The translations under genes and the position numbers were made by a program. The notes beneath the pieces are model-generated. The model saw only the letters and a list, made by a program, of their open reading frames with translations, was not told where the DNA came from and did not search any database. From contig CANFLZ010000011.1 in NCBI GenBank assembly GCA_947448135.1, positions 1 through 64,000 of the forward strand: DNA of 64,000 nucleotides, read 5' to 3'. Shown here in pieces: positions 10,311 through 27,232 of this stretch. The first letter of the stretch is position 1. Every line of letters begins with the position of its first letter. The stretch is from Flavobacteriales bacterium (GTDB taxonomy: Bacteria; Bacteroidota; Bacteroidia; Flavobacteriales_D; Sanyastnellaceae).

Positions 10311-11468
10311 GTGTCTACAGCTTGGAGTAAAAGGATTCCTTGGATTTTAGGAATCGCATATTGGATGTTGATGATCATCAATCATCGATTCAATATGTGG
10401 GACTTCAAAGTTTATTATTCCGCTGCCGAAGCTTTTATTCATGGGCAGCCAGTCTATGGGCAAGCTTTTGGTTTGGGAAGTGGTTTTTATAAGTACTCGC
10501 CTTTTGCAGTGTTGCCATTTGTACCATTGGCTGTTTTACCATATTTCTGGGCGCAAACGATTTATTACTTTGTGCTTTTGGCTATAATCATTCGCTCAGT
10601 TCATGTTTGGAATGAACAAATGCGAAGGCCCAATGCAAAATGGACAATAGGTACTGCTTCGATATTGACCATCATTTTCTTCGGAGATCATCTTGAACGA
10701 GAGCTCTTCTTGGGCAATGTTAATTTCTTACTGTTGGCCTTGCTTTTTTGGGCTTGGAAAAATTACAAAGCACAAAAATGGGGAATGGCGGGTTTGCTGC
10801 TTGCTGTTGTGATATTATTCAAACCCCACTTTGTCGTTTTAATTCCTTTGTTACTGCTGGCCAAGCAATGGGATTGGATTAAATATTTCACTTATTCGGT
10901 CATGGTGTTGTTGCTATTGCCGCTTGTATTTGTTGGTCCTTTAGATGGATGGCAAATGTTGATGGATTGGTTTCAAACCATGAAAATGCACAATGTTGCC
11001 TTGTACAGCAGTCCGAATACATTATATGGTTTGTTCAATCATTTTGTGGCTATTCCAATGGGTTGGGAATTGAAGTCACAATTGGTCTTTGTGGTATTAT
11101 TCGTCTTGGGTGTATTGGGAGGAGCGCTTTGGATAACGAAATTCAAATCCGGTAAGTGGCCTTTGACTTACGCATTCATCGCTTTGATTGCACTGGTACC
11201 TTCTTTAACCCACACGGATACAGAGCATTTTCTTTTCTCTATTCCCATTTTTGTTTTTTGGTTGAACTCCTATAGTAAAAATGAAAAATGGGGAATAGAT
11301 GCCGCAATGATAGGATTGGCTTTTATTCCGTTTACATTAAACTCTCCAGATTTGGTTGGAAAGACGATAGCACATTTTTTCGATGAAGAAGGTGGAATAG
11401 GTTTGGCCAATGTCCTTTTAATCAATTCCTATTTTATGCGATTGAACAGGGTTTTTTCCAATCATTAA
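10311..11468 (+). CDS. GT87-family (DUF2029) integral membrane glycosyltransferase
   Basis: 385 residues with about 10 hydrophobic segments and the GT87/DUF2029 N-terminal pattern: FKVYYSAAEAFIHGQPVYG followed by KYSPFAVLPFVPLAVLP in the first loop. Proteins of this group move a sugar (often mannose or arabinose-like) from a polyprenyl-phosphate donor on the outer face of the inner membrane. The start is GTG at 10311, two bases after the msrA stop; no earlier ATG fits. It is the last gene of the tight four-gene run. Acceptor unknown; because the neighbours are exported, it may decorate an envelope glycan or protein. Confidence 0.85.
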   Translation: MSTAWSKRIPWILGIAYWMLMIINHRFNMWDFKVYYSAAEAFIHGQPVYGQAFGLGSGFYKYSPFAVLPFVPLAVLPYFWAQTIYYFVLLAIIIRSVHVWNEQMRRPNAKWTIGTASILTIIFFGDHLERELFLGNVNFLLLALLFWAWKNYKAQKWGMAGLLLAVVILFKPHFVVLIPLLLLAKQWDWIKYFTYSVMVLLLLPLVFVGPLDGWQMLMDWFQTMKMHNVALYSSPNTLYGLFNHFVAIPMGWELKSQLVFVVLFVLGVLGGALWITKFKSGKWPLTYAFIALIALVPSLTHTDTEHFLFSIPIFVFWLNSYSKNEKWGIDAAMIGLAFIPFTLNSPDLVGKTIAHFFDEEGGIGLANVLLINSYFMRLNRVFSNH

Positions 11469-11487: not shown

Positions 11488-14400
11488 ATGCGCTATGCTT
11501 TCATTTGCATTTCTATTTTATTTTGGTTGAATTGCGGAGACGTATTTTCCCAGGTATTCATAGAGAACAAAGGGCAGTGGCCGAGTGAAGTCTTGTTTGG
11601 CATCAACACAGATCAGGGTAGTGTATTTATTCAAAAAACAGGCTATCGCATTCATCAATTTGATCTTTCAGGTCTCCATCATGCCGATCCTCAATATGTT
11701 CCAAATGCGGATGATATTCGATTCAAAGGGCATGTATTTCAGGTGAATTGGAGCATGTTCAATCGAAATTCGAAAACTTCAGTTGACGAAACTGTTCCAA
11801 CAAAATTCAATTACTATTTGGGAAATAATTCCAGAAATTGGGCGAGTGATTGCCATGGATATCGAGTGGTTATTCAATACAATATCTTTCCTAAAATTGA
11901 TTTGATTTGGAAATTTTCAGAAGGAGCCGTAAAAACAGAATGGCGAATTCATCCTGGTGGAGACGTAAAAAATATCCAGTGGCAATACGCGGGAGTTGAC
12001 GGAGCGGAGGTGTCCAATCAGCAAGTAACGGTGCAAACCTCTTTAGGGAATTTTGTAGAGCACATGCCAGCTTGCTGGATTCAATTGCCAAATGGAAAAA
12101 AGAAAGAATTGTTCAATAAAATTCGATATGAAGTTCGCGGAAAGTCTTTCGGATTCCACAGTGATATTCAGCAAGAAGGAATTTTGATCATCGATCCTCA
12201 ACTTATTTTTTCTACATACAGTGGAAGCACTTCCGATAATTTCGGGTATACCGCGACTTATGACCAAGACGGTTATCTATACTCGGGATCTTCAGCCTTC
12301 GGTCAAGGATATCCGACAACATTGGGAGCTTATCAAACGACATGGGCAGGAGGAGATGGCAGTTTTACTTTGCCAGGAACAGATGTCTCATTGTCGAAAT
12401 ATGATGTTAGTGGGACATTTATGGTTTGGTCGACTTTCATTGGCGGTGCAGGGGATGAGTTGCCTCATTCTTTGGTTGTGAATAATAACAACGAGTTGAT
12501 TGCCTATGGATCGACTGGTTCCAATAATTTTCCCTGCACCGGCAATGCCATAGATAGCACATTCAATGGAGGTGTCGCTTTTACACCACAAGGAGTTGGG
12601 ACAACGTATGCCAATGGTTGTGATGCTTTTCTCGCGCAGTTGAATTCCGATGGATCGAACTTGGTGATGTCCACCTATTTTGGAGGTTCTGGAAATGATG
12701 GGGTTAACACTGCAGGGGGATTGAAATTCAATTATGCTGATGAGTTTCGCGGAGAAGTTGATCTTGATGAAGTTGGGAATATTTACGTCATAGGAACCAC
12801 GAACAGTCAAGATTTCCCGTTATTGAATTCATCTGAAAATGGTGGCGGCATGCAAGATGTTTTTATCTTAAAATTCTCACCGCTTTGGCAATTGATGTTA
12901 TCACGTAAACTCGGAGGAAGTGAAGATGAGTCGGGTTGTAGTGTGAGTGTGAAAAATGGTGAAGTATGGATATGTGGAGGCACGCAGTCCGCTGATTTTC
13001 CCGTATCAACGGGAGCATATCAGACCAATTTTGGAGGAGGCTCTGCAGATGGATGGATAGCTCGATTATCAGTGAATGGTATTAGTGAACTTGCTTCCTA
13101 TTGGGGATCAGCGGCCTATGAGCAATGGTATTTTATCGATTTAAACAATAGCCTTCAGCCATTTGTATACGGACAGTCGACGGCCAATGGTTCAACATGG
13201 ATTTCAAACGCGGCCTGGTTTCAATCCAATAGTGGAATGGTAGTGGCTCAATTTTCTGAGGACTTATCAGTATTGGAGCATTCGACGGTGTTTGGATCGG
13301 GAACAGGTTTGCCCAATTTATCCCCAGCAGCATTTATGGTAGATGTTTGTGGACAAATTTATCTCTCTGGTTGGGGAGGTGCTGTTAACCAAGGTTCAAA
13401 TGCACAAACCGGCAATACCAACAACCTTTGGACATCTTCTAATGCTTTTCAATCCACTACGACTGGCAGCGACTTTTACCTATTGGTCATCAAGGATGAT
13501 TTTAGTTCACCCGTTTACGGGACTTATTACGGAGGTTCGCAATCTGCAGAACATGTTGATGGAGGTACGAGTCGTTTCGATCGAAAGGGAATCATTTATC
13601 AAAGTGTTTGCGCAGGATGCGGCAACCATGACGATTTCCCCATTTATCCGGACAATGCTGTTTCTGCAATCAATGCTTCCAATAATTGCAACAATGGTGT
13701 TTTTAAATTTGATTTTGAGTTGCCCTTGACTTTTGTGCAACCTCAGTTTGTTTACGAGGCTTGTGTAGGTGAGCAAATCGATTTTACCGCAAGTTCTCAA
13801 AATGTTCAAACGTGGATTTGGCAGGATGATCAAGGCAATGTCATGCACAATGGAAGTTCTTTTTCTATGGCATTCAATGCCCCTGGAGATTATTATTTGG
13901 AAGTGATTGGAATTGATTCAACAACTTGTAACATCAGTGACTCAGCAGGACATTGGATTCATGTAATTGGTCCACAGGTCAATACTGCTGAATCGGTTTC
14001 ATTGTGCTTGGGTGATAGTGTTTGGATCGGTTTAAATCAGCCAGAATCAGGGGTAAATTATAGTTGGCAGAGCAATCCATTTATCACCGAGGATACACTA
14101 TACGTGACGCAATTTTTTGGAAATGAAAATACAAATTTGGTATTGTTGTCTGAACACGGGTTGTGCACAGATACAACCTATTTTCCCATTGATGTTGTCA
14201 ATGTACAGTTACAATTACCGGAAGATTCTGCTTTTTGTGCAGCCCAAACAATTGATGTTCATGCATCAGTGCAGCCAATCTCGGCAAACGTACAATGGTT
14301 TTGGAACGACCCCAATGGCAATGTTTTGGATAGCGGAGTTGACTTGACTTATGATTTGATTCAAGGGGGTTGGCTGTACGCAATTGCCACGAGTAACAAT

Positions 14401-15198
14401 TGCCAATCGATGGATAGCATGCAGTTTCAATTGTTTTCCTTGAATGAAAATGATCTACAGAATCCCATCATTTGCAATGAAGATTCCGTGTGGATTGGAG
14501 TTCAAAATCCAATACCTGCAGTAACATACCAGTGGCAGCCTAATGACAACATTTTGACAACCTTGGAGTCACCATCGATTTTTGTGAGTGGAGTAGTTTC
14601 AGGTCAATACATCCTCACCTCTTCATTGGATCTCTGTCAAAGAACCGATACAGTAACCGTTACTGTTTCAGAATTATCTACTTTGAATTTAGAAATGCAA
14701 TTATCTCAAACGCCAGTGATAAGTGGACAATCTGTAGAATTGATTGCGTTTCCGAATGGATTTGAATATCAATTCAATCCCAATCATTGGATTATCGAGC
14801 AAAATGGAAACACCGTTTCAGGGATTCCCACTGAGACCGGATGGGTTGAAGTTGAATGGGTAGATGGATCATGCAGACGATCAGATTCTATATGGATTGA
14901 AGTGGTAGATTTTGAATGCGCTGATCCATATTTGTTTATTCCCAATACATTTAGTCCGAATCAAGATGGGCACAATGATGTGATTTACGTCTATGGTAAT
15001 TTGGGCCAATCACTTCAGTGGCAAATCAATGATCGTTGGGGAAATATGGTTTTTTATTCGGAGGACATTCACGAAGGATGGGATGGCAAATGGAAAGGAA
15101 AAATAGTGGAGTCGGGGGTTTACCATTATTATTTGAATTGGAGATGTGAGGATGGCCGAGTTTGGCAAAAGGAAGGAAATATTACGGTGCAACATTGA
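11488..15198 (+). CDS. T9SS type-B sorted surface protein with SBBP-type repeats
   Basis: A 1236-residue secreted protein. Signal peptide 1-21 (ending DVFSQ). Residues about 22-240 (FIENKGQWPSEVLFGI at the start) form the N-terminal domain typical of Bacteroidetes SBBP-repeat proteins. Residues about 240-720 contain repeats of the SBBP/propeller type (WSTFIGGAGDELPHSL, STYFGGSGNDG, YGTYYGGSQSAEHVDGG) and the hallmark QSVCAGCG. Ig/PKD-like segments follow, and the last 90 residues are a gliding-motility-type C-terminal domain (FIPNTFSPNQDGHNDVIYV, RWGNMVF, GWDGKWKG, SGVYHYYL), the type-B signal for T9SS export. The downstream PorP/SprF-like gene overlaps its end. It is expected to sit on the cell surface as an adhesin-like protein; the ligand is unknown. 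Confidence 0.92.
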   Translation: MRYAFICISILFWLNCGDVFSQVFIENKGQWPSEVLFGINTDQGSVFIQKTGYRIHQFDLSGLHHADPQYVPNADDIRFKGHVFQVNWSMFNRNSKTSVDETVPTKFNYYLGNNSRNWASDCHGYRVVIQYNIFPKIDLIWKFSEGAVKTEWRIHPGGDVKNIQWQYAGVDGAEVSNQQVTVQTSLGNFVEHMPACWIQLPNGKKKELFNKIRYEVRGKSFGFHSDIQQEGILIIDPQLIFSTYSGSTSDNFGYTATYDQDGYLYSGSSAFGQGYPTTLGAYQTTWAGGDGSFTLPGTDVSLSKYDVSGTFMVWSTFIGGAGDELPHSLVVNNNNELIAYGSTGSNNFPCTGNAIDSTFNGGVAFTPQGVGTTYANGCDAFLAQLNSDGSNLVMSTYFGGSGNDGVNTAGGLKFNYADEFRGEVDLDEVGNIYVIGTTNSQDFPLLNSSENGGGMQDVFILKFSPLWQLMLSRKLGGSEDESGCSVSVKNGEVWICGGTQSADFPVSTGAYQTNFGGGSADGWIARLSVNGISELASYWGSAAYEQWYFIDLNNSLQPFVYGQSTANGSTWISNAAWFQSNSGMVVAQFSEDLSVLEHSTVFGSGTGLPNLSPAAFMVDVCGQIYLSGWGGAVNQGSNAQTGNTNNLWTSSNAFQSTTTGSDFYLLVIKDDFSSPVYGTYYGGSQSAEHVDGGTSRFDRKGIIYQSVCAGCGNHDDFPIYPDNAVSAINASNNCNNGVFKFDFELPLTFVQPQFVYEACVGEQIDFTASSQNVQTWIWQDDQGNVMHNGSSFSMAFNAPGDYYLEVIGIDSTTCNISDSAGHWIHVIGPQVNTAESVSLCLGDSVWIGLNQPESGVNYSWQSNPFITEDTLYVTQFFGNENTNLVLLSEHGLCTDTTYFPIDVVNVQLQLPEDSAFCAAQTIDVHASVQPISANVQWFWNDPNGNVLDSGVDLTYDLIQGGWLYAIATSNNCQSMDSMQFQLFSLNENDLQNPIICNEDSVWIGVQNPIPAVTYQWQPNDNILTTLESPSIFVSGVVSGQYILTSSLDLCQRTDTVTVTVSELSTLNLEMQLSQTPVISGQSVELIAFPNGFEYQFNPNHWIIEQNGNTVSGIPTETGWVEVEWVDGSCRRSDSIWIEVVDFECADPYLFIPNTFSPNQDGHNDVIYVYGNLGQSLQWQINDRWGNMVFYSEDIHEGWDGKWKGKIVESGVYHYYLNWRCEDGRVWQKEGNITVQH

Positions 15199-16193
15199 GA
15201 ACTTTCATTGTCATATTGATGCTCATCATAGGCCCTGGATTGAAGGGGCAAGATTTGCATTGGACACAATTTTGGGGAACTCCACTTCAAGTTAGTCCTG
15301 CCGTCAATGGTCTAGGGGATGGAGATTTTCAAATTCAAACGAGTTGGCGTTCGCAATGGAAGGGCGTGTCAGGAGTGCCCTATCAAACCCAATGGGTACA
15401 AGCTGAATGGAAGAAAATTAGACAATCCAATTGGAGCGATGGATTGGGCATTGCTCGAGATGTTGCGGGTGATGGTCAATGGAAGCAGTTGCAGGTTTTG
15501 GGAAATTTTGCACGGGTATTTGAGTTGGATTCAGGACGAACTATTTTCTCTTTGGGAGCACAAATACGTTATCACCAATGGCAATGGAATCCTTCGGCAT
15601 GGCAATGGGGAAGTCAATGGAATGGGGCATTTTATGATCCCAGTTTGCCTACAATGGAAAATCAATTACTCAATAAAACGGGTTTCATCTCATTGAGTTT
15701 AGGTGGAGCTTGGATTCAAAATTGGTTATCCAATATTACGAGTCAATTGACATGGGGGAGTTATCAATTGTGGAGCAGTCAGTGGCAAATGTTGGAACAA
15801 GGAAATGCGGTTCAAATGAGAAATACGGCATCCTTTCAACTGAACTACATGTGGAATGAAAACTGGACTTTTCGATACGCCACAATCCTGCAAATTCAAG
15901 GAGTTCAAAAGGAATATACGCATTGGTTAATGTCTGATTATTATTGGAACAAGCAGCCATGGAATTTGATGTGTTTGCAAACGGGTTTAGGATTTCGCGC
16001 CAACGATGCGATCATGCTTTTTGGAGGAGGAAAATGGAAGCAACATCAATTGGGATTGAGTTATGATTGGAATGTATCCCGATTTAGCGTGGCAACAGAG
16101 TATCGAGGAGGCTGGGAATTGCATTACGCTTGGCTATTGAATAAAATTCCAATCAAACATCCGGTTCGAAACGTTTGCCCTGATTATTATTAG
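15162..16193 (+). CDS. PorP/SprF-family type IX secretion membrane protein, extremely Trp-rich
   Basis: 343 residues. After the signal peptide the sequence QDLHWTQFWGTPLQVSPAVNG is the standard N-terminal signature of PorP/SprF proteins, and the end (RNVCPDYY) fits the Cys-Pro tail common in the family. These outer-membrane barrel proteins act with specific T9SS cargo; SprF is needed for SprB export in Flavobacterium. Two starts are possible: ATG 15162, inside the cargo gene (37-base overlap), or TTG 15195, whose TTGA overlaps the cargo stop and gives a tidier signal peptide (MRTFIVILMLIIGPGLKGQ). About 27 of 343 residues are Trp (near 8 percent), far above usual. The overlap with the cargo gene strongly suggests a matched pair. 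Confidence 0.9.
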   Translation: MAKGRKYYGATLRTFIVILMLIIGPGLKGQDLHWTQFWGTPLQVSPAVNGLGDGDFQIQTSWRSQWKGVSGVPYQTQWVQAEWKKIRQSNWSDGLGIARDVAGDGQWKQLQVLGNFARVFELDSGRTIFSLGAQIRYHQWQWNPSAWQWGSQWNGAFYDPSLPTMENQLLNKTGFISLSLGGAWIQNWLSNITSQLTWGSYQLWSSQWQMLEQGNAVQMRNTASFQLNYMWNENWTFRYATILQIQGVQKEYTHWLMSDYYWNKQPWNLMCLQTGLGFRANDAIMLFGGGKWKQHQLGLSYDWNVSRFSVATEYRGGWELHYAWLLNKIPIKHPVRNVCPDYY

Positions 16194-16519: not shown

Positions 16520-16900
16520 CTATCCGCCAACGGCGTGACGTAAACTTTCAATTGAACTTTCCCAAAGAAGTTGACACTCATCTTCTTCACCTTCATCGCA
16601 GAAATCAGTTATAACCAACGCTAGATCTCCAGTCATCTCGTCTTTCGTAATTCGGATTTCAAAAAATGTCTTGTCCTTGCCATCGTCCATCCAATGGAAT
16701 TTGACAAATTGATCTTTCTTTGAGGAGACCAATGTGGCAGTTTTCTGCTCACCTTCCCAAATGAATGTATATTCCTCACCCCTGATATTGACTTTATCAG
16801 CAAACCATTCTTCAAAACCACTAGGTGTGCTGATGCAGTTGTAAATGGTGTGAGCGGATGCGTGAATTAAAAATTCATATTGTACTTGAACTTTTGCCAT
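16520..16900 (-). CDS. START-like (SRPBCC/AHSA1-type) domain protein
   Basis: 126 residues from ATG 16900 (MAKVQVQYEFLIHAS); an in-frame ATG at 16912 adds four residues. The fold pattern is that of the SRPBCC superfamily: initial strand, short helices with the typical phrase TPSGFEEWFADKV (as in AHSA1-like proteins), a run of antiparallel strands (YTFIWEGEQKTATLVS) and a long C-terminal helix (LLWESSIESLRHAVGG). Members bind hydrophobic ligands or modulate Hsp90-like partners; the one widespread in Bacteroidetes is uncharacterised. The one-mismatch -7 box TGATTTTG lies just before ATG 16900 on the minus strand, supporting that start. Confidence 0.85.
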   Translation of the reverse strand: MAKVQVQYEFLIHASAHTIYNCISTPSGFEEWFADKVNIRGEEYTFIWEGEQKTATLVSSKKDQFVKFHWMDDGKDKTFFEIRITKDEMTGDLALVITDFCDEGEEDECQLLWESSIESLRHAVGG

Positions 16901-17011
16901 AATCAAAATCATTTAGGTCTAATGCAATGATAAGCAAAAAAAGACAATTAATTATGAATTGATTAACAAGACTATGAAATAATTGATTTACTTTGGAATC
17001 ACAAACATTGT

Positions 17012-18043
17012 ATGAGAATTGTTCTATCCATAGGTATTGTAGGGTTGGGAAATATTGGTAAAAGGCACTTGGATATTTTGTTCAATATGCCAACTTATCA
17101 AGTGGTGGCAATTTGTGATGTTGATGCCGAAAAATTACATCATTTTTCAGTATTGTATGGTGTTCCTGGTTTTTTAAATTTTGATGATTTCTTGAGCTAT
17201 TGTTCAAGTGTAAATTGCTCAATTATTGGTATCACCACACCGCATCATGAACATGCCAATCAATCCATTTTAGCTTTCGAAAAAGGGTTTGATGTTTTGG
17301 TAGAAAAACCGATGGCTATTCACAGTGCTGATGCACTCAAGATGATTCAGGCTGCTCAAAATTCAAAACGAAAGCTGTGGGTGGTGAAGCAAAATCGCTT
17401 TAATGCTCCTGTGGCTAGAGTGAATGATTTAATTATGTCTGGAGAACTGGGTAAAATTTATCATTTGCAATGTCAGATCATTTGGAACCGAAGTGCATCT
17501 TATTATTCGGATTCCAAATGGAGAGGTAAATTGGATTCAGAAGGTGGCGCATTGTATACACACGCTAGTCATTTTATCGATTTGATGACCTGGTGGGCGG
17601 GAAAGGTTGTCCATGCATCGGGGGTTATGAAAAGGTTTGTACAGCCAATCGAAAGTGAAGACATGGGTAGTGCTGTTTTAGAATTTGATTCTGGGGCAAT
17701 GGGAAGTATTACCTGGACTACTTTGTCACATGGTCAAAATCAAGAAGGCAGTATTACGATTATTTCTGAAAAAGGCACCATTAAGATTGGTGGACCGTAT
17801 TTGAATAAGATTGATTTTTGGGATGTTTCTGGAATTCAAGAACCAACAGATTTGTCACAGGTGGATCAGCCAAATGATTACGGCTCTTTCAAAGGTTCCA
17901 GCAGCAATCACCATTTGGTGTATGATTCAATTTGGAAAGAAATGGAGTCTGGTGTAATTCAAACAGTAGATGGAGTCGAAGGGTTGAAGAGCATTGAGGC
18001 CATCGAGACTATTTATCGATCTATTAAGAAAATAGATGAGTGA
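17012..18043 (+). CDS. Gfo/Idh/MocA-family oxidoreductase, WlbA-like nucleotide-sugar dehydrogenase
   Basis: 343 residues. The N-terminal Rossmann domain has GLGNIG (11-16) and the family's EKP motif (98-100). The C-terminal domain contains KQNRFNAPVARV, IIWNRSASYY, WRGKLDSEGGAL and ASHFIDLMTWWAG with the expected catalytic His187. The WNR...YY...WRG...GGAL...HFID series is what I associate with WlbA-type enzymes, which oxidise the 3-position of UDP-N-acetylglucosaminuronic acid on the way to 2,3-diacetamido-uronic acids. The substrate is inferred, not proven. Its last bases overlap the next gene by 8 bases, and that gene overlaps a T9SS adhesin gene, so a role in surface glycan synthesis is likely. 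Confidence 0.85.
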   Translation: MRIVLSIGIVGLGNIGKRHLDILFNMPTYQVVAICDVDAEKLHHFSVLYGVPGFLNFDDFLSYCSSVNCSIIGITTPHHEHANQSILAFEKGFDVLVEKPMAIHSADALKMIQAAQNSKRKLWVVKQNRFNAPVARVNDLIMSGELGKIYHLQCQIIWNRSASYYSDSKWRGKLDSEGGALYTHASHFIDLMTWWAGKVVHASGVMKRFVQPIESEDMGSAVLEFDSGAMGSITWTTLSHGQNQEGSITIISEKGTIKIGGPYLNKIDFWDVSGIQEPTDLSQVDQPNDYGSFKGSSSNHHLVYDSIWKEMESGVIQTVDGVEGLKSIEAIETIYRSIKKIDE

Positions 18044-19205
18044 GATTTTGGTGATCAATTTTAAGTCACCTCCTTTCCAAGGGATTGGCGGAAGACGTTG
18101 GTCAAAAATTTCCAAAGAGCTAATTCGCAGAGGTCATTGTGTGAATTTGATTTATGCGGAGAAATCACCATCAAAGGTTCCAAGTGCATTTTGCAATGGA
18201 ATCAAATATCCCGTCGCATGGAAACATCCGTTGCATATTTCAAGTAAATGGAGAGGCAAATTCATGCAAAAATTATCTTATTTCCAACGTCGATTGTCCG
18301 GCGGATATTCTTTTTTTGATGAGGGTTCTTATGTTATTTCAGATCTGCAAAAGGGATTGAAGTTTATTTTTGAATCGAAACCAATAGATATTTTATTTGT
18401 TACGTGTCCGCCTTATAGTTGGACTTTTGAAGTGACGAAATGGTGCAAGTCTCATTATCCTGATGTGAAAATTTGGGTAGATCTACGTGACCCCTGGATC
18501 AATGCCAATAATTGGGGAATCCCCGGATTAACAGCCAATCAGCGATTGCAAGAAAATTTTCGTCATCAATATGTTGCCGAACATGCAAATTTTATTTCAA
18601 GTCCCGCTAATGAAATTTTAGATGAATTTTCAAATTGCAAAGCCGAAAAAGTGCATCTGAAACATTTTTTTGATGAGGATGATTTTTCGCAAACAAACCA
18701 TTCTTCTTTTCATGCCATTCAAGATTACAGTTATTGGATGTATGCAGGTCAATTTTATGTGGGCATGGAAGAGCAAATGGAAATATGGAAAAGGGCGATT
18801 GAAAGTAATCCGCAAGAAGAATGGAAGATCTTTAGCAAGGATCATGAAAAATTCAGGCAATATTTAGGCGGCTTTCAAAATGTGAAGATTCACAATGAAA
18901 TTGGCAGTGATATCTATCGGTGGATGCTTCAAGCCAAAGGATTTATTGTGGCATTGAGTGGATACAATCAAAATTTTTTCACTACCAAATTTTATGATTA
19001 TCTGCCTTGGGAAAAGCCATTGGTATACTTGGGGCCGAAAGGAAAAGTTTGGCATTTTTTATTGGAGCATGGTCAGAAATCTGACAAGCTTAAAAACGCT
19101 AATGTTTTTTTAATGAATAGGTCTGATTTTAAGACGGATGGTTTATCTTTCCGCGTCGAACAGATATTGAACCTATGTCCATTTTTAGATCATTCCTCGC
19201 ATTAG
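18036..19205 (+). CDS. Glycosyltransferase, GT4-like (GT-B fold)
   Basis: 389 residues. The N-terminus (ILVINFKSPPFQGIGGRRW, then ELIRRGHCVNLIYA) is the first Rossmann-like unit of GT-B transferases, with a glycine-rich loop for the acceptor. IWVDLRDPWINAN is also typical of GT4-like N-domains. The C-terminal half has the weak nucleotide-sugar-binding pattern FYDYLPWEKPLVYLGPKG, lacking the classic E-x7-E spacing. Donor and acceptor are unknown. It overlaps the upstream dehydrogenase by 8 bases and the downstream adhesin gene by 31 bases, so all three are probably in one transcript. Confidence 0.82.
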   Translation: MSEILVINFKSPPFQGIGGRRWSKISKELIRRGHCVNLIYAEKSPSKVPSAFCNGIKYPVAWKHPLHISSKWRGKFMQKLSYFQRRLSGGYSFFDEGSYVISDLQKGLKFIFESKPIDILFVTCPPYSWTFEVTKWCKSHYPDVKIWVDLRDPWINANNWGIPGLTANQRLQENFRHQYVAEHANFISSPANEILDEFSNCKAEKVHLKHFFDEDDFSQTNHSSFHAIQDYSYWMYAGQFYVGMEEQMEIWKRAIESNPQEEWKIFSKDHEKFRQYLGGFQNVKIHNEIGSDIYRWMLQAKGFIVALSGYNQNFFTTKFYDYLPWEKPLVYLGPKGKVWHFLLEHGQKSDKLKNANVFLMNRSDFKTDGLSFRVEQILNLCPFLDHSSH

Positions 19206-22200
19206 TTATTTTATGCGGCATTTTAAGTTTGCCCGTTACAACTTATTCTCAATTGATTGTAACGCCTGGTGTTCCAGCGGCGAACCTTGCAGGTTCAGCA
19301 TTTGGAAATGGAATTACGGTTTCTGGAATTCCTGAAATCAATTGCAATAGTGCGCAATATGGATCTTTTTCAAATGGATTGACAACCAACCTGGGTTTTA
19401 GCTCTGGCTTGGTCATGTCAACTGGATCCGCGGCTGCGGCGGCAGGTCCATCTGGTCAGAATGCCTCAACCTCATATGGCATTTCGTATACAGATCCTGA
19501 ATTAACAGCAATCTCCCCCGGTGCAACAAGGGATGTTTGTATCATCACCATCAACATTGTTCCTCAGTGTAACACCCTTGCTTTGCGCTTTGTATTTGGT
19601 TCTGAGGAATATCCTGAATTTGTAGGTGGAACTTTCAATGATGTGTTCGGATTTTTTGTTTCAGGGCCAATGCCTTCAGGAGGTTCTTACACAAACATGA
19701 ATGTAGCTCAGTTGCCGAATGGCACGCCAGTTTCCATTAACAATGTAAACGCAGGCAACAATGCTGCTTATTATGTCAATAATTCCAACAATGGTTATAT
19801 CAAATACGATGGATTGACTACAGTTTTGCTTCCAGTTATTGATGTGATACCTTGTGAGGTTTACACTTTTAAATTGGCCATAGCCGATGCTGGTGACTTT
19901 ATTTATGACTCAGCCATTTTCATTGATTTCATTTCTTGTTCGAATAGCGTGGCAGCCACCAATCCTGTTATTACTCCTGCAACTTGCAACGATAGTTCTG
20001 GTAGTATCGAATTGGAAATCACCAATGGGATCGGCCCATTTGTAGCGAATTGGGCGCAGTTTCCAGATAGCACAGGAACATCATTGCACAACATCCCTCC
20101 TGGAACCTACACCTTTCAAGTTTTAGATCAAGGAATTCCTTGTGCCACAACCAGTGTATTCAACTTTGAAGTGCCCACCAATGGTTCAATGCCAACCACC
20201 AATATTGTGACATCGGATAGTGAAATTTGTGTGGGGCAATCGGTAGTCTTAAACCCTTCTGGTGCGGATGATTATGTTTGGACATCCAGCTTGGGTACTT
20301 CAACAGATTCAACTTTTGCTGCTGCTCTGACAGCTTCAGAATGGGTACACTTGACAGGTACTAACATGTGTGGTACTGTTGAGGATTCTCTATTTGTACA
20401 AGTGAATCCTATTCCAATTCTTAATCCAAGTGCCGTCGAAGATACCCTGTGCGCGGGACAAATGATTATTTTTCAATCCAATATTCCGCAGACGGGTACC
20501 ATCAATTGGTTTGGACCTGGCGGATTTACAAGCACCTCATTTAATCCGAGTATTCCCAATTGTACCGTCAATCACTCGGGAACTTTTTTTGCCAATGTAT
20601 CCATGAATGGTTGTTCTTCAGGACCACAGCCATTAACCATTTTGGTAAAACCCACGCCTTCTGTTGGAGGTGCTGCTGTCCCTTTGATTTGTCAAGGTCA
20701 AAATATTCAATTGTTTGCCCAACCCAATGGCAATCAGTTTTCATGGACTGGCCCTAATGGTTTTGTAGCCAATACTCAACAGGTAACCATTCCCAATGCA
20801 ACACCCAGTATGTCGGGTGTGTATTCATTGCAGATTGGACAAAATGGGTGTTTCTCCAACACTCAAAATTTCAATGTAAGCGTAACGCCATCTCCGCAAG
20901 TTGGCTTGAATCCGAATTATGCGGCTTGTATGGGTAGCACAATCAATATTGATGTTACACAAATTGCGGGAGCGTCATATGCTTGGACAGGACCCAATGG
21001 ATTTACCGCGACTGGTCCTACCATTATATTGTCCAATGTCGATAATACGGATGTTGGTTCATATGCTGTAACTGCTACATTATCTGGCTGTCCATCCAGT
21101 AATATTGCCACGCAATTTGATGTAATCGAGATACCTGTCGCTTTGCCGAGTGTTCTTGATAACACAGTTTGCGCAGGTGATTCCATTTCATTAATAGGCA
21201 ACGCTTCGGTAAATGGAGTTGTTTATTCATGGACTGGGCCAGATGGATTTACGAGTACATTGGCCAATCCAACGATTCTGAATTCAATTGAAAATAACCA
21301 AGGATCCTATAGCCTTGTTGTTGATTTTATGGGTTGTGTTTCTGGATCTTCCAGCGTTAACGTTACAGTGAATCCAATCCCCAATGTTACAATTTGGAGC
21401 AATTCGCCTGTTTGTGAAAACGGAACAATTAGTTTATTCGGCTCCTCTCCAAACTTCGGAACCTACGCTTGGACAGGCCCAAATGGTTTCACATCCAATA
21501 TTTTGGAACCGACTATTTCAAATGCCAGTTCCGTTAATCAGGGTGAGTATGTGATCGTCATGACTGCTGCTGGATGTAATTCAATCGCCGATACCATACA
21601 AATCAATGTCACACCCCTTCCCATAGCCAATCCAACCAATAATGGGCCGTTGTGCGTTGGTGATAATTTGCAGTTGACAGCCAATTTCAACAATGCTACA
21701 AGCTACGCTTGGACCGGCCCCAATGGCTATGCCGCCGCTATACAAAACCCGACTACGCTGGGTGTCAATTCAGGAGATGCGGGAACTTATACGTTGGTCG
21801 TTACTGCCAACAATTGTAGTTCTTTACCTGCAACAACGACTTTGATAGTCAACCCGAATCCAGTTGTCACAGCAAGTTCAACCGGATGGATTTGTAATGG
21901 ACAAAATATTGAATTGACTTCAACAGGATTGACAAGCGCAACATGGACGCCCGGTGGCCTGTCTGGAACTTCAGTTGAGGTTTCCCCAAGTGCCACCACA
22001 ACTTTTATGGTTGCAGGAACGGATAACAATGGATGTTCAGGTTCCGCTTCAACACAAGTTTTGGTATATTCACCTTATGTGAACGTGAGCCAGATTTTGC
22101 CAAATCCTTTCACGGGTATAGATTCGACACAGGGTTATTTGCCGTTGGATGTGAGCTTTGAATATGAGACCAATGGGGAAACGATGGTGTGGAACATGGG

Positions 22201-22666
22201 AGATAGTTCAGATTGGATTGTCTTAACACCTGCAGACTCCGTTGTCAATTATATGTATGTTGATGAAGGATACTTCCCGGCGGTGATAACCGTTACATTG
22301 AATTCATGTCCAGCGACAGACACTGTTTGGGTGAGGACGTTTGGTGTCTCTATGGTGGGATGTGAATTGCAATTGGGAGATTGCGACAATGGCTATATTC
22401 CTAATATTGTTACGCCGAATGACGATGGTGAGAATGATTTTTTCTGGGTCCCCAATATGCATATGGCAACTTTAGATGTTCGAATTTTCAATCGTTGGGG
22501 AAGTGAAGTTGGAGCGATTACCGAGCCCAATCAATATTTGTGGACTGCCGATCACGTTTGGGATCCAAAAGAATTAGGCAACGGCGTATTTTATTATGTT
22601 GTCAAAGGAACAGGAAAGGATGGCGTCGAACATTCCAAACAAGGGTGTTTTGAGGTCGTTCAATAA
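19175..22666 (+). CDS. T9SS type-B adhesin with choice-of-anchor-L head and Ig-like repeats
   Basis: 1163 residues. Signal peptide 1-26 (ending TTYSQ). The head, residues about 30-265, has choice-of-anchor-L features (SSGLVMSTGSA, FVFGSEEYPEFV, FNDVFGFFVSG). Then come six Ig-like repeats, each marked by a W-[TF]-GP-[NGD]-G-[FY] core (for example YAWTGPNGFT) near the middle and a C-x-G or NGC near the ends. The last 230 residues carry a PKD-like unit, the pair VGCELQLGDCDNG, and a gliding-type T9SS sorting domain (IPNIVTPNDDGENDFFWVP, FNRWG, VWDPKELGNGVFYY). Its start lies 31 bases inside the glycosyltransferase gene. It is paralogous at its C-terminal third to the next gene. Expected on the cell surface; ligand unknown. 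Confidence 0.92.
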   Translation: MSIFRSFLALVILCGILSLPVTTYSQLIVTPGVPAANLAGSAFGNGITVSGIPEINCNSAQYGSFSNGLTTNLGFSSGLVMSTGSAAAAAGPSGQNASTSYGISYTDPELTAISPGATRDVCIITINIVPQCNTLALRFVFGSEEYPEFVGGTFNDVFGFFVSGPMPSGGSYTNMNVAQLPNGTPVSINNVNAGNNAAYYVNNSNNGYIKYDGLTTVLLPVIDVIPCEVYTFKLAIADAGDFIYDSAIFIDFISCSNSVAATNPVITPATCNDSSGSIELEITNGIGPFVANWAQFPDSTGTSLHNIPPGTYTFQVLDQGIPCATTSVFNFEVPTNGSMPTTNIVTSDSEICVGQSVVLNPSGADDYVWTSSLGTSTDSTFAAALTASEWVHLTGTNMCGTVEDSLFVQVNPIPILNPSAVEDTLCAGQMIIFQSNIPQTGTINWFGPGGFTSTSFNPSIPNCTVNHSGTFFANVSMNGCSSGPQPLTILVKPTPSVGGAAVPLICQGQNIQLFAQPNGNQFSWTGPNGFVANTQQVTIPNATPSMSGVYSLQIGQNGCFSNTQNFNVSVTPSPQVGLNPNYAACMGSTINIDVTQIAGASYAWTGPNGFTATGPTIILSNVDNTDVGSYAVTATLSGCPSSNIATQFDVIEIPVALPSVLDNTVCAGDSISLIGNASVNGVVYSWTGPDGFTSTLANPTILNSIENNQGSYSLVVDFMGCVSGSSSVNVTVNPIPNVTIWSNSPVCENGTISLFGSSPNFGTYAWTGPNGFTSNILEPTISNASSVNQGEYVIVMTAAGCNSIADTIQINVTPLPIANPTNNGPLCVGDNLQLTANFNNATSYAWTGPNGYAAAIQNPTTLGVNSGDAGTYTLVVTANNCSSLPATTTLIVNPNPVVTASSTGWICNGQNIELTSTGLTSATWTPGGLSGTSVEVSPSATTTFMVAGTDNNGCSGSASTQVLVYSPYVNVSQILPNPFTGIDSTQGYLPLDVSFEYETNGETMVWNMGDSSDWIVLTPADSVVNYMYVDEGYFPAVITVTLNSCPATDTVWVRTFGVSMVGCELQLGDCDNGYIPNIVTPNDDGENDFFWVPNMHMATLDVRIFNRWGSEVGAITEPNQYLWTADHVWDPKELGNGVFYYVVKGTGKDGVEHSKQGCFEVVQ

Positions 22667-22671
22667 ATCGA

Positions 22672-25600
22672 ATGAAGAATATACTTCTGGTTATTTTGTC
22701 GTTTTTGGCTGTAAGCCAAGTGCGCGCTACTCACTTATTTGGTGGTGATTTAACGTACACATATATTGGGGACAACCAATACCAAGTCAAATTGGTGGTG
22801 TATCGCGATTGTGGTCCCTCCAATTCCAATAATACTTATTTTGATGCAACCGCCAATATCGCAGTATACAATGTCGGTGCTGGCTTGCAAACAACGATTT
22901 CAATTCCTTTGAATTCGGCCAATGTGAGTTACGTAGAAATTACTTTTAACGATCCGTGCCTTTCCGTGCCTTCCGAACTTTGTGTGCAACAAGCGATCTA
23001 TACTTCAACCGTCACCCTTCCTTTTTCAGCCGCGGGTTATACGTTGTCTTATCAACGCTGTTGTAGAAACAATAGTATAGATAATATCAGTAATCCAGCC
23101 AACAGTGGTATGACTTTAACGACGCAAATTCCAGGAACAAATTCTGTAGCAGTTCCCAATTCGTCGCCAACCTTCAATTCACTGCCACCTGTAGCGCTTT
23201 GTTTGGGATCTAATTTTGTTTACGATATCGATGCAACAGATATTGATGGTGATTCATTGGTTTATTCATTTTGCAACCCACTTCTGGGAGGAACAGCAAC
23301 TTCACCGACCCCCAATCCACCTACGGCTCCGCCATACACACCAGTTTCATGGTCAGGAACCTATTCAACAGGTTATCCCATTGCCAGCAATCCGGCAATG
23401 ACAGTCAATGCACAAACAGGACAAATTACTGGAGTTGCCAGTCAATTGGGTACATACGCGGTGGCTTTGTGCGTGGCGGAATATCGCAATGGCATTTTAA
23501 TCAATACTGTCAGAAGAGATTATCAATTTAATGTGGTCTTGTGCGATCCAACGACAACGGCGGCTATTGGTTTGCCAACCAATACTTCTACTTGTGTCGG
23601 TTCAACGATTGGATTTACCAATAATTCATTGAACGCAAATGCTTACTTGTGGGATTTTGGAGTTGATTCATTATCGACAGATACCTCGACGTTGTTTCAG
23701 CCCACTTTTGTTTACAACGAGCCTGGAACCTACACAATAACCTTGATTACCAATCCTGGTTTGGATTGTGCTGACACAACGACCATGCAATTCACGGCTC
23801 ATGAGATTCCTATTGTCAATGCAACAAGTAATTCTCCCATCTGTGCAGGTCAAGATTTATTATTGTATGCCAGCTCCAATCCTGGGGTTGCCTATCAATG
23901 GACAGGTCCTTTGGGATTCACGAGCAATATTGCAAATACAATTAGACATTTTACAACGCCAAGCCACACTGGTAATTATTCGGTTACTGCAAGTTTTCCA
24001 GGTTGTGTGGGTCCCCCAGCTACTGTTGCAGTCGTGGTGTATGCAACGCCCAATGCTAATCCTACAACTTCTGGATCGGCATGTGTGAATGGTAATATTC
24101 AATTGATAGGCAATGGAGGACTGAATTATACATATGCATGGACAGGTCCCAATAATTTCAATTCTACGGAACAAAGTCCTTGGCTGAATAATGTGAACGA
24201 ATCTTTTGAAGGATATTATTATTTACAATTGAGCTTCAATGGATGCAATTCAGTAGTAGACTCGACTTGGGTTAATGTGCTTGCCGAACCGTCAACAAAT
24301 GCATCCTATAACTCGCCATTGTGTTGGGGAGATAGTCTTCATTTGACTTGCGCTGAAATAGCGGGAGCAACCTACCAATGGACCGGTCCCAATGGATTCT
24401 CATCAAACTTAGCACATCCTGATTTACCAAGCAGTGGAATAAGTGTTGAAGGAAATTATAGTGTAGTAGTTGTTTCGGCTTCTTGTCCTTCATTGGCGGC
24501 CACAGTAAATGTTGATGTCATTATTCCTCCAGTTGCTTCTATTTTAAATGTAGATACCAACTTTTGTGAAGGTGAACAATTGATTTTGCAATCCAATATT
24601 TTGTCTAATGCTAATTACTATTGGACAGGGCCTAATGGATTCAGTTCTCAAGCCCTCAATCCCCAGATTCTCAATTTAACTGTTTCTCAGACCGGGCAAT
24701 ATTCTGTTCAAATAGAACAGAATGGATGCTTTTCGAACACCGATAGCCAATCGATTCATGTTTTTTCAATCCCAACGGCTGTCATCAATACAAACGCTCC
24801 AATTTGCGAAAATGAATTATTGTCTGTATCATCAACTGTGACAGTGGGGTCGGATGTTCAATACAGTTGGATCGCTCCCAATGGTCAGGCAATTTCCAAT
24901 AGTCCCAATTTCACAATAGAACCAGCTGGACTGAATTGGAATGGTCAATTGGGATTAGTGATTTCTTCCAATGGATGCAGTTCTCCTGAGATTGATGTGG
25001 ATATTGTGGTTCATCCAACTCCTTTGGTCACTTTTGCGGGTGACAATGTCTATTGTCAAGGAGATAATTTATTATTGTCCGCAACTGCTCAAGTATTGTG
25101 TTTTTATTCTTGGACCGGACCTCTGGGATTCACGGCAACGGGTTCTGAAATTTCAATGAATAATGTTCAGCCTTCGATGTCAGGTAATTACAATGTCATT
25201 GCAGTAGCGAATAATTCCAATGGCTGTCAATCTGAACCGACCACCTTCGGAGTTACAGTAAATGCCAATCCCATCGTTTCGATTTCAACCCCAGACTCAT
25301 CCATTTGCTTGGGAGATCCAATTACTTTAGTCATGAGTGGGGCCAATACTGGATTTTGGACGGATGGGTTGCAAGGTCAAAGCATAACAATTACACCCAA
25401 TAATGATGTAATGGTAACCGTGACAGGAGTGGACAACAATGGTTGCATCAATACGGATAACATACAAGTCATCGTTCATCAACCTTGGGTAAGCATAGAT
25501 GGAGCGTCACCCATTTTAGAACAAAATTCGGCTTGGGTAGGAGGTTATTATCCTTTGAATAGTTATTTTTTGGTTTCTGGAAATGCCGATAATTATGTTT

Positions 25601-26073
25601 GGGAATTTGGAGATACAAGTTCAATTACCACAAGTGTATTACCTGATACAATGTTTCACATCTATGAAAATCCATCGTTGTTTTTGTTAACGATAACTGC
25701 TGAGATTGATGGATGCTTTGCGTGGGATACCATTCATGTTGAAACGTATGCAGAATCTTTATTGGGATGTAGCGAAGATATTTCGGGATGTGCCTTGGGC
25801 ATGATTCCAAATTTGGTAACAGCTGATGGAGATGGACTCAATGATACATTTTGGATTCCCAATCGTTATATGAGAGAATGGGAGGTGAAGATATTTGATC
25901 GATGGGGAGATTTAAAAGCGACCATAGACGAAGGAAATTTTTACCGAATGGTTCCGAAAAAAGTATGGGATCCTGCTGATTATTCTCCAGGAGTTTATTT
26001 TTATACCTATAAAGGCGAGGGAGTTGATTATTTGAAATATGAAGGGTCTGGATATTTCCAAGTCGTAAAATAA
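22672..26073 (+). CDS. T9SS type-B adhesin with distinct N-terminal head, PKD and Ig-like repeats
   Basis: 1133 residues, starting five bases after the previous stop. Signal peptide 1-19 (ending VRA), then a head domain (residues about 20-300; THLFGGDLTYTYIG, VYRDCGPSNSN, CVQQAIY, YQRCCRNNSI) with many Cys. This type of head is common among Bacteroidetes type-B cargo. A PKD domain (about 310-370; YLWDFGVDS...YNEPGTYTITL) follows, then six Ig-like repeats with W-[TI]-[GA]-P cores and a C-terminal T9SS domain (MIPNLVTADGDGLNDTFWIP, FDRWG, VWDPADYSPGVYFY). The C-terminal third is clearly homologous to the preceding protein, while the heads differ, so the pair looks like two binding heads on one stalk type. 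Confidence 0.92.
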   Translation: MKNILLVILSFLAVSQVRATHLFGGDLTYTYIGDNQYQVKLVVYRDCGPSNSNNTYFDATANIAVYNVGAGLQTTISIPLNSANVSYVEITFNDPCLSVPSELCVQQAIYTSTVTLPFSAAGYTLSYQRCCRNNSIDNISNPANSGMTLTTQIPGTNSVAVPNSSPTFNSLPPVALCLGSNFVYDIDATDIDGDSLVYSFCNPLLGGTATSPTPNPPTAPPYTPVSWSGTYSTGYPIASNPAMTVNAQTGQITGVASQLGTYAVALCVAEYRNGILINTVRRDYQFNVVLCDPTTTAAIGLPTNTSTCVGSTIGFTNNSLNANAYLWDFGVDSLSTDTSTLFQPTFVYNEPGTYTITLITNPGLDCADTTTMQFTAHEIPIVNATSNSPICAGQDLLLYASSNPGVAYQWTGPLGFTSNIANTIRHFTTPSHTGNYSVTASFPGCVGPPATVAVVVYATPNANPTTSGSACVNGNIQLIGNGGLNYTYAWTGPNNFNSTEQSPWLNNVNESFEGYYYLQLSFNGCNSVVDSTWVNVLAEPSTNASYNSPLCWGDSLHLTCAEIAGATYQWTGPNGFSSNLAHPDLPSSGISVEGNYSVVVVSASCPSLAATVNVDVIIPPVASILNVDTNFCEGEQLILQSNILSNANYYWTGPNGFSSQALNPQILNLTVSQTGQYSVQIEQNGCFSNTDSQSIHVFSIPTAVINTNAPICENELLSVSSTVTVGSDVQYSWIAPNGQAISNSPNFTIEPAGLNWNGQLGLVISSNGCSSPEIDVDIVVHPTPLVTFAGDNVYCQGDNLLLSATAQVLCFYSWTGPLGFTATGSEISMNNVQPSMSGNYNVIAVANNSNGCQSEPTTFGVTVNANPIVSISTPDSSICLGDPITLVMSGANTGFWTDGLQGQSITITPNNDVMVTVTGVDNNGCINTDNIQVIVHQPWVSIDGASPILEQNSAWVGGYYPLNSYFLVSGNADNYVWEFGDTSSITTSVLPDTMFHIYENPSLFLLTITAEIDGCFAWDTIHVETYAESLLGCSEDISGCALGMIPNLVTADGDGLNDTFWIPNRYMREWEVKIFDRWGDLKATIDEGNFYRMVPKKVWDPADYSPGVYFYTYKGEGVDYLKYEGSGYFQVVK

Positions 26074-26136: not shown

Positions 26137-26475
26137 ATGAATCGTTACGAAACTGTTTTCATTATGACTCCCGTGCTGTCTGAAGATCAGGCTGCGGAAA
26201 CAGTGGAAAAGTTCAGAAAGTTTTTGAAAGGAAAGGGCGCTACTATCAAGCACGAGGAAAACTGGGGCTTGAAAAAGTTGGCTTACCCAATCCAAAAGAA
26301 AACAACTGGATTTTATCACTTGTTGGAGTTCGAAGCTTCTGGTGAAGTAGTTAATCCATTCGAGACGGAGTTCCGTCGCGATGAGCGCATCTTGCGTTTC
26401 TTGACTACACACATGGACAAGTATCACGTTGCTTACGCGGAATCTCGTCGCAACAAGTCACAAGACAAAAAATAA
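26137..26475 (+). CDS. rpsF: Small ribosomal subunit protein bS6
   Basis: 112 residues with the S6 pattern [18 protein letters not shown] at the start and [18 protein letters not shown] in the middle. It binds bS18 and the central domain of 16S rRNA. First gene of the S6-S18-L9 operon, with a perfect promoter upstream. In Bacteroidetes, bS6, together with bS18 and bS21, is reported to form the pocket that holds the 16S 3' tail (anti-Shine-Dalgarno) out of action. Unlike many bacteria, there is no ssb gene between rpsF and rpsR. Confidence 0.97.
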
Positions 26476-26500
26476 GTTTAACTCCTAAATTCGAAACACT

Positions 26501-26767
26501 ATGAGTGAAAATGGAGAAATTCGTTATCTGAATCCAATCGAGATTGAGACGAAGCAAGCTAAGTATTGCCGTTTCAAGAAGGCGGGTATCAAATATATCG
26601 ATTACAAAGACGCAAACTTCTTATTGAAGCTTTGCAACGAACAAGGAAAAATTCTTCCTCGTCGCCTTACAGGAACTACTTTGAAAAACCAACGCAAAGT
26701 GGCTCAAGCTATTAAAAAAGCACGTCATTTGGCCTTAATGCCTTTCGTAGGTGATATGTTAAAATAA
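26501..26767 (+). CDS. rpsR: Small ribosomal subunit protein bS18
   Basis: 88 residues. The conserved core [26 protein letters not shown] and [26 protein letters not shown] (in outline) is unmistakable bS18. It pairs with bS6 on the platform of the 30S subunit. It lies 25 bases after rpsF and 15 bases before rplI. In Bacteroidetes it is one of the three proteins that sequester the anti-Shine-Dalgarno sequence. Confidence 0.97.
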
Positions 26768-26769
26768 TC

Positions 26770-26775
26770 AGGAGG
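26770..26775 (+). promoter_or_regulatory. Strong Shine-Dalgarno site (AGGAGG) before rplI
   Basis: AGGAGG is seven bases before ATG 26783. Such sites are rare in this window, where most starts have only A-rich upstream sequence, so it is notable inside the bS6/bS18 operon. Confidence 0.75.
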
Positions 26776-26782
26776 ATTAATC

Positions 26783-27232
26783 ATGGAAGTTATCTTAAAA
26801 ACAAACATTGAAAAGTTGGGTGCCAAAGATGAGGTAGTCAACGTAAAGCCTGGTTATGCTCGTAACTACCTTATCCCTCGTGGATATGCAGTTGCAGCTA
26901 CTGAAAGTGCTCGTAAAATGTTAGCTGAAAATTTAAAGCAACGTGCTCACAAGGAAACTAAAATCTTAGCTGATGCGCAAGCAATGGGTGAGAAGTTGGG
27001 TGCTTTGACTTTGAAAATCGCTACCAAAGCTTCTGATACTGGAAAAATCTTCGGAAGTATCAATACCATTCAATTGGCTGAAGCATTTGCGAAAGAAGGT
27101 CATAACATCGATCGCAAATCAATCAGTTTGGTTGAAGAGCACATCAAAATGTTGGGTTCTTACGAAGCAAAAGTAAAATTGCACAAAGAGGTTACAGCAG
27201 TTGTTAAGTTCGATGTAATCAACGAAGCATAA
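26783..27232 (+). CDS. rplI: Large ribosomal subunit protein bL9
   Basis: 149 residues. The N-terminal domain has MEVILKTNIEKLGAKDEVVNV and PGYARNYLIPRGYA; a long connecting helix (residues about 40-75) leads to the C-terminal domain (GKIFGSINTIQLAEAF), giving the dumbbell shape of bL9. It binds 23S rRNA near the L1 stalk and helps frame maintenance. Third gene of the rpsF operon, preceded by a perfect Shine-Dalgarno site and followed by a strong terminator. Confidence 0.97.
   Translation: MEVILKTNIEKLGAKDEVVNVKPGYARNYLIPRGYAVAATESARKMLAENLKQRAHKETKILADAQAMGEKLGALTLKIATKASDTGKIFGSINTIQLAEAFAKEGHNIDRKSISLVEEHIKMLGSYEAKVKLHKEVTAVVKFDVINEA

Follow-up and report, generated by a model that had tools for sequence, protein, structure and literature searches.

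A wlb-derived dehydrogenase and glycosyltransferase gene pair beside two T9SS type-B adhesin genes that may alter a surface glycan

A pair of genes, for a WlbA-like dehydrogenase and a glycosyltransferase (GT) (17012-19205; hereafter the pair), lies between a START_2 gene and the genes of two type-B T9SS adhesins in G000, the genome that carries the window, i.e., the whole stretch of 64,000 nucleotides that was analysed. The pair most likely introduces or alters a single sugar in a surface glycan made along with the adhesins. That this wlb-derived pair is co-expressed with the adhesins and alters the surface glycan, and is not the source of the anchor sugar, is a reading to which we give an even chance. 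The features of the locus are listed below.

16520..16912, minus strand: START_2-domain gene (PF19569, 2.1e-35), the conserved left flank in G000, G003, G006, G005 and G002.
16913..17011, no strand: divergent intergenic region of 99 nt, candidate promoter.
17012..18043, plus strand: putative WlbA-like Gfo/Idh/MocA sugar-nucleotide 3-dehydrogenase (domains, PDB relatives, alignment and tree).
18036..19205, plus strand: GT4-like (putative GT-B fold) glycosyltransferase of the GIGGRRW family (domains of family members, structure model).
19142..19178, approximate bounds, plus strand: last GT codons 5' of the adhesin start, probable adhesin leader (codon conservation with G003).
19175..22666, plus strand: T9SS type-B cargo (adhesin 1) with signal peptide, choice-of-anchor L, Ig-like repeats and CHU_C sorting domain (domain matches).
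22672..26073, plus strand: second T9SS type-B cargo (adhesin 2) with PKD/Ig repeats and CHU_C (domain matches; adhesin order kept in G006, G005 and G002).

The ORFs 17012-18043, 18036-19205 and 19175-22666 are all on the plus strand with overlaps of 8 nt and 31 nt, as a sequence-only reading of this DNA had described, and the second cargo ORF (22672-26073) begins 5 nt past the end of the first. The giant T9SS cargo named in that reading was also confirmed: choice-of-anchor L (6.7e-61), Ig repeats and CHU_C (7e-14) were found in adhesin 1, of which the TIGR04131 type-B score was below the cut-off, and CHU_C (PF13585) was above the cut-off in both adhesins. The N-terminus of adhesin 1 is a signal peptide and the next in-frame Met occurs only from about residue 80, so that the start at 19175 is taken as correct. 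A PorP/SprF-family gene was identified by domain match at 15162-16193, and in this combination with CHU_C/type-B adhesins the locus resembles the SprB-SprF and PorP-PG1035 systems; to our knowledge, no sugar genes are known beside the cargo genes of those systems. The ribosomal genes rpsF-rpsR-rplI were located directly 3' of the adhesin genes (window 26137-27232) in G000, G002 and G001, and form a fixed right flank.

Gfo/Idh/MocA oxidoreductase domains were assigned to the 17012-18043 product by domain search, and its top PDB matches were 3q2i (206 bits) and 3q2k (202 bits), which we take to be the WlbA structures from Chromobacterium and Bordetella, followed by a third match at 78 bits. The EKP lysine (K99) and the SHFID histidine (H187) were invariant (alignment A2), and their roles, with H187 as the catalytic histidine, are presumably those of the Gfo/Idh/MocA superfamily generally. 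In these two residues, and in being nearest to WlbA by a wide margin, the dehydrogenase is like that of the Wlb/Wbp UDP-2,3-diacetamido-uronic acid pathway of Bordetella, Pseudomonas and Thermus, whereas here only the dehydrogenase and GT genes are present, with no acetyltransferase or aminotransferase gene adjoining. The enzyme may oxidise a UDP-GlcNAcA-type sugar at C3; its product is uncertain, since no dedicated aminotransferase is encoded nearby.

The GT (18036-19205) itself gave no match to Pfam or NCBIfam models and no relevant match to PDB entries by sequence or by profile, but GT4 N-domains were matched by 9 of 16 members of the same GT family. Its AlphaFold model (pLDDT 66) was matched by Foldseek to BshA and UDP-GlcNAc 2-epimerases (E ~1e-8, TM 0.45-0.55), and a GT-B fold is assigned with moderate confidence. 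The earlier designation of a GT4-like transferase thus holds for the family and the model rather than for a domain match of the protein itself.

Full wlb operons were found in seven relatives of the family (G010, G022, G025, G036, G020, G007 and G029), with the WlbA orthologue first, followed by a hexapeptide acetyltransferase (WlbB), a DegT aminotransferase, a GIGGRRW GT and further GTs. In trees with long branches, the pair dehydrogenases of three species, G000, G006 and G003, were monophyletic (100/99) and nested in the wlb-operon clade (100/100), and the pair GTs of these species likewise formed one group (100/99), with the wlb GTs as sister group (91/94). The dehydrogenase falls among enzymes of wlb polysaccharide operons, and the WlbA-like assignment in the sequence-only reading was upheld. 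The wlb-operon clade, pair sequences included, was distinct from an order-wide WbpB-like clade (100/100). A wlb-type WlbB and aminotransferase were absent from G000, where the best matches (29% and 43% identical) were the core copies. Judged by sequence, the pair represents the two end genes of the wlb-type operon of the family, and the genes between them, for WlbB and the aminotransferase, are missing. In G016 (L088 8430-11426) a form with three genes was observed, for WlbA, acetyltransferase and GT, and ~2 kb beyond it, on the opposite strand, are a PorP-like gene and a giant gene of T9SS-like type. Family wlb operons (L085, L093, L094, L095 and L099) adjoin genes for a cytidylyltransferase, an asparagine-synthase-like protein and a glutamine amidotransferase, neighbours that point to the likely synthesis of further unusual sugars, acidic or amidated, at these loci.

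Of six same-genus relatives, two share this gene order. In G006 the START_2, dehydrogenase, GT, adhesin 1 and adhesin 2 genes are all on a single contig; in G003 they are split, with the pair and the start of the adhesin gene on contig C291 and START_2 on C150. The end of C150 and C291 (L129, L002) share 149 identical bases that stop at the dehydrogenase start, and strains that differ at this edge of the pair could account for the assembly break at that point. The overlap of the dehydrogenase and GT genes was 8 nt in G000, 1 nt in G006 and none in G003, and that of the GT and adhesin genes 31, 17 and 28 nt, respectively. The recurrence in G006 and G003 makes the tight arrangement more than a matter of chance; the linked unit claimed earlier is thus kept as an order in three species, while the lengths of overlap vary and one junction lacks an overlap. 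In G005 and G002 START_2 is followed by adhesin 1 after 124 nt, the pair is absent and both adhesins are kept, so that between species with and without the pair the gene content of the locus is otherwise unchanged. A dehydrogenase or GT of the pair type was found nowhere in the genomes of G001 (93% complete) and G004 (96% complete).

In a profile search for the GT in 399 genomes of the order, scores above 600 bits were obtained only in the three genomes with the pair, the next being 229 bits, and in a pattern-based scan of GTDB r220 only the records of G003 and G006 matched, both Flavobacteriales MAGs (RE-23may17-738 and RE-4nov15-171) whose names suggest a freshwater origin. Co-occurrence with type-B cargo, which the earlier reading had proposed to look for in relatives, was accordingly seen in G003 and G006, and no pair next to cargo was found outside the three species in the 399 genomes or the pattern-based scan. 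START_2 was rejected as a marker of the locus beyond the genus, where synteny is lost. The order-wide dehydrogenase tree and local trees of flanking genes and adhesins separate the species with the pair from those without, so that one gain or one loss is enough, the direction being left unset by a root within the genus that is not fixed. Four-fold sites were saturated in every comparison (K4 ~1.5), and for that reason could not show whether G000 and G003 had exchanged alleles of the pair. Both ORFs of the pair are intact in the three species despite this divergence, so that purifying selection acts on both genes; together with the conserved enzyme residues, a function is implied.

Two stretches at the edges of the pair are also conserved. 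The non-coding DNA 5' of the dehydrogenase gene (16860-17011) was much closer between G000 and G003 than were synonymous sites, and TTACTTTG, immediately 5' of the gene within 16913..17011, is similar to the Bacteroidota -7 element (one mismatch); 16913..17011 may be the promoter region of the dehydrogenase gene. A search for the exact TAnnTTTG promoter pattern gave no match, and a sigma-70 promoter scan gave scores close to the shuffled background. At the GT end, the same codon was used in G000 and G003 at 12 of 13 identical residues versus 47% overall (binomial 8e-4, for a window of the ~12 last codons before the adhesin start that was picked after the fact), and the best-conserved 12-codon window of three compared genes falls in this GT end. 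The conservation suggests that the 3' end of the GT gene carries an adhesin leader.

In the proposed mechanism, the pair would be expressed with the adhesins as one unit, and the dehydrogenase product could be completed by core WbpE/WbpD-like enzymes encoded elsewhere in the genome. The GT would then transfer the sugar onto a lipid-linked glycan of the cell surface, either O-antigen or protein O-glycan, and the outer glycan would thereby vary in step with adhesin expression. A lipid-linked glycan, rather than protein, is the presumed acceptor, and it is gene order only that suggests a functional tie between pair and adhesins. Within the phylum, T9SS cargo is known to be glycosylated (PMC7468200, PMC11858162). 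The outer part of the general Bacteroidota O-glycan differs between species and is made by clustered GTs (PMC12871550).

In the main rival reading, which we consider unlikely, the adhesins themselves are the target: the GT would use the sugar from the dehydrogenase to modify them, either in the cytoplasm or by way of the general O-glycan, as in Aah/AIDA-I and HMW1C/HMW1. The aah-aidA genes are a known adhesin-GT pair, and here too a GT gene is directly beside a giant adhesin gene, lying immediately 5' of it with an overlap in three species. An adhesin with an adjoining GT is an established arrangement (PMC2877744, PMC3012730). The present GT is GT4-like, however, not a heptosyltransferase or GT41, a sugar-nucleotide dehydrogenase is added, and the cargo is that of the T9SS. 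Furthermore, G002 and G005 have the same adhesins but lack the pair, and members of this GT family outside the pair were found in polysaccharide operons. Nor was there a relation between the pair and D[ST][AILMTV] O-glycosylation motifs, for which z in adhesin 1 was 3.3 and 0.0 with the pair and 2.3 without it; enrichment of O- or N-glycosylation motifs was thus rejected as a mark of adhesin modification. A related proposal, that a type-B adhesin operon has its own sugar-nucleotide dehydrogenase and GT that decorate the adhesin or a docking glycan with a lineage-specific sugar, is doubtful.

It is similarly improbable that the pair is neutral, being a piece of a wlb operon that landed or was left at the site and serves general polysaccharide synthesis without any link to the adhesins. 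The restriction of the pair to three species, and its presence or absence in a locus of otherwise the same gene content, would fit such a fragment, but the tight order has persisted through large divergence (GT 38-49% identical) and the GT end is conserved at the codon level right before the adhesin start.

As for the anchor, the pair is probably not required for it. In P. gingivalis the linking sugar requires WbpA, B, D and E (PMC7468200) and depends on WlbA/WbpB homologues (PMC7468200, PMC4031482). Type-B cargo in P. gingivalis and F. johnsoniae is reported to be held by PorP/SprF rather than A-LPS; in P. gingivalis PG1035, a type-B protein, is retained by PorP and carries no A-LPS modification (PMC9143113). 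The pair shares with the P. gingivalis Wbp/Vim pathway the dehydrogenase superfamily and the secretion system, but the order-wide Wbp-type copy of G000 is in another clade and on other contigs, and the cargo at the locus is type B. A complete Wbp-type set (WbpA, B, D and E homologues) was found in G000 outside the pair, spread over contigs C24, C8 and C30, together with a PorU sortase (1219 bits), 85 type-A sorting-domain matches including PorU itself (about 84 type-A cargo genes) and 28 type-B matches. A WlbA-like dehydrogenase was present in all 46 good-quality genomes (among 60), and most have one of the second, order-wide type. In G049 and G043, genes for a WbpE-like aminotransferase, a UDP-glucose dehydrogenase, an epimerase/dehydratase, a WbpD-like acetyltransferase, a WbpB-like dehydrogenase and a WbpA-like UDP-GlcNAc 6-dehydrogenase are clustered; from this WbpE-WbpD-WbpB-WbpA company the order-wide clade would be expected to include P. 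gingivalis WbpB. The order-wide set probably makes the anchor sugar in G000. The sequence-only reading, in which the pair makes or attaches the T9SS anchor sugar of the adhesins, is thus very improbable despite the requirement for WlbA/WbpB homologues in P. gingivalis, because the neighbouring cargo is of the PorP-bound type B, the Wbp-type set is encoded elsewhere, the adhesins exist without the pair (G002 and G005) and the dehydrogenase of the pair is outside the order-wide clade.

The locus cautions against taking a homologue of WbpB or WlbA close to cargo as a sign of anchor chemistry. For the display and possible glycosylation of type-B T9SS cargo, a single site that occurs in two states between retained flanks, one containing the pair and one lacking it, offers a natural comparison by which a link between glycan pair and adhesin becomes testable.

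Elsewhere in the window, a GT87-family transferase gene (10311-11468) is located 19 nt 5' of another type-B T9SS cargo gene (11488-15198, DUF7948/CHU_C). The orthologous genes in G002 overlap by 4 nt (L128 682-1854 and 1851-5561), so that this neighbourhood of GT and cargo occurs also where the pair is absent.
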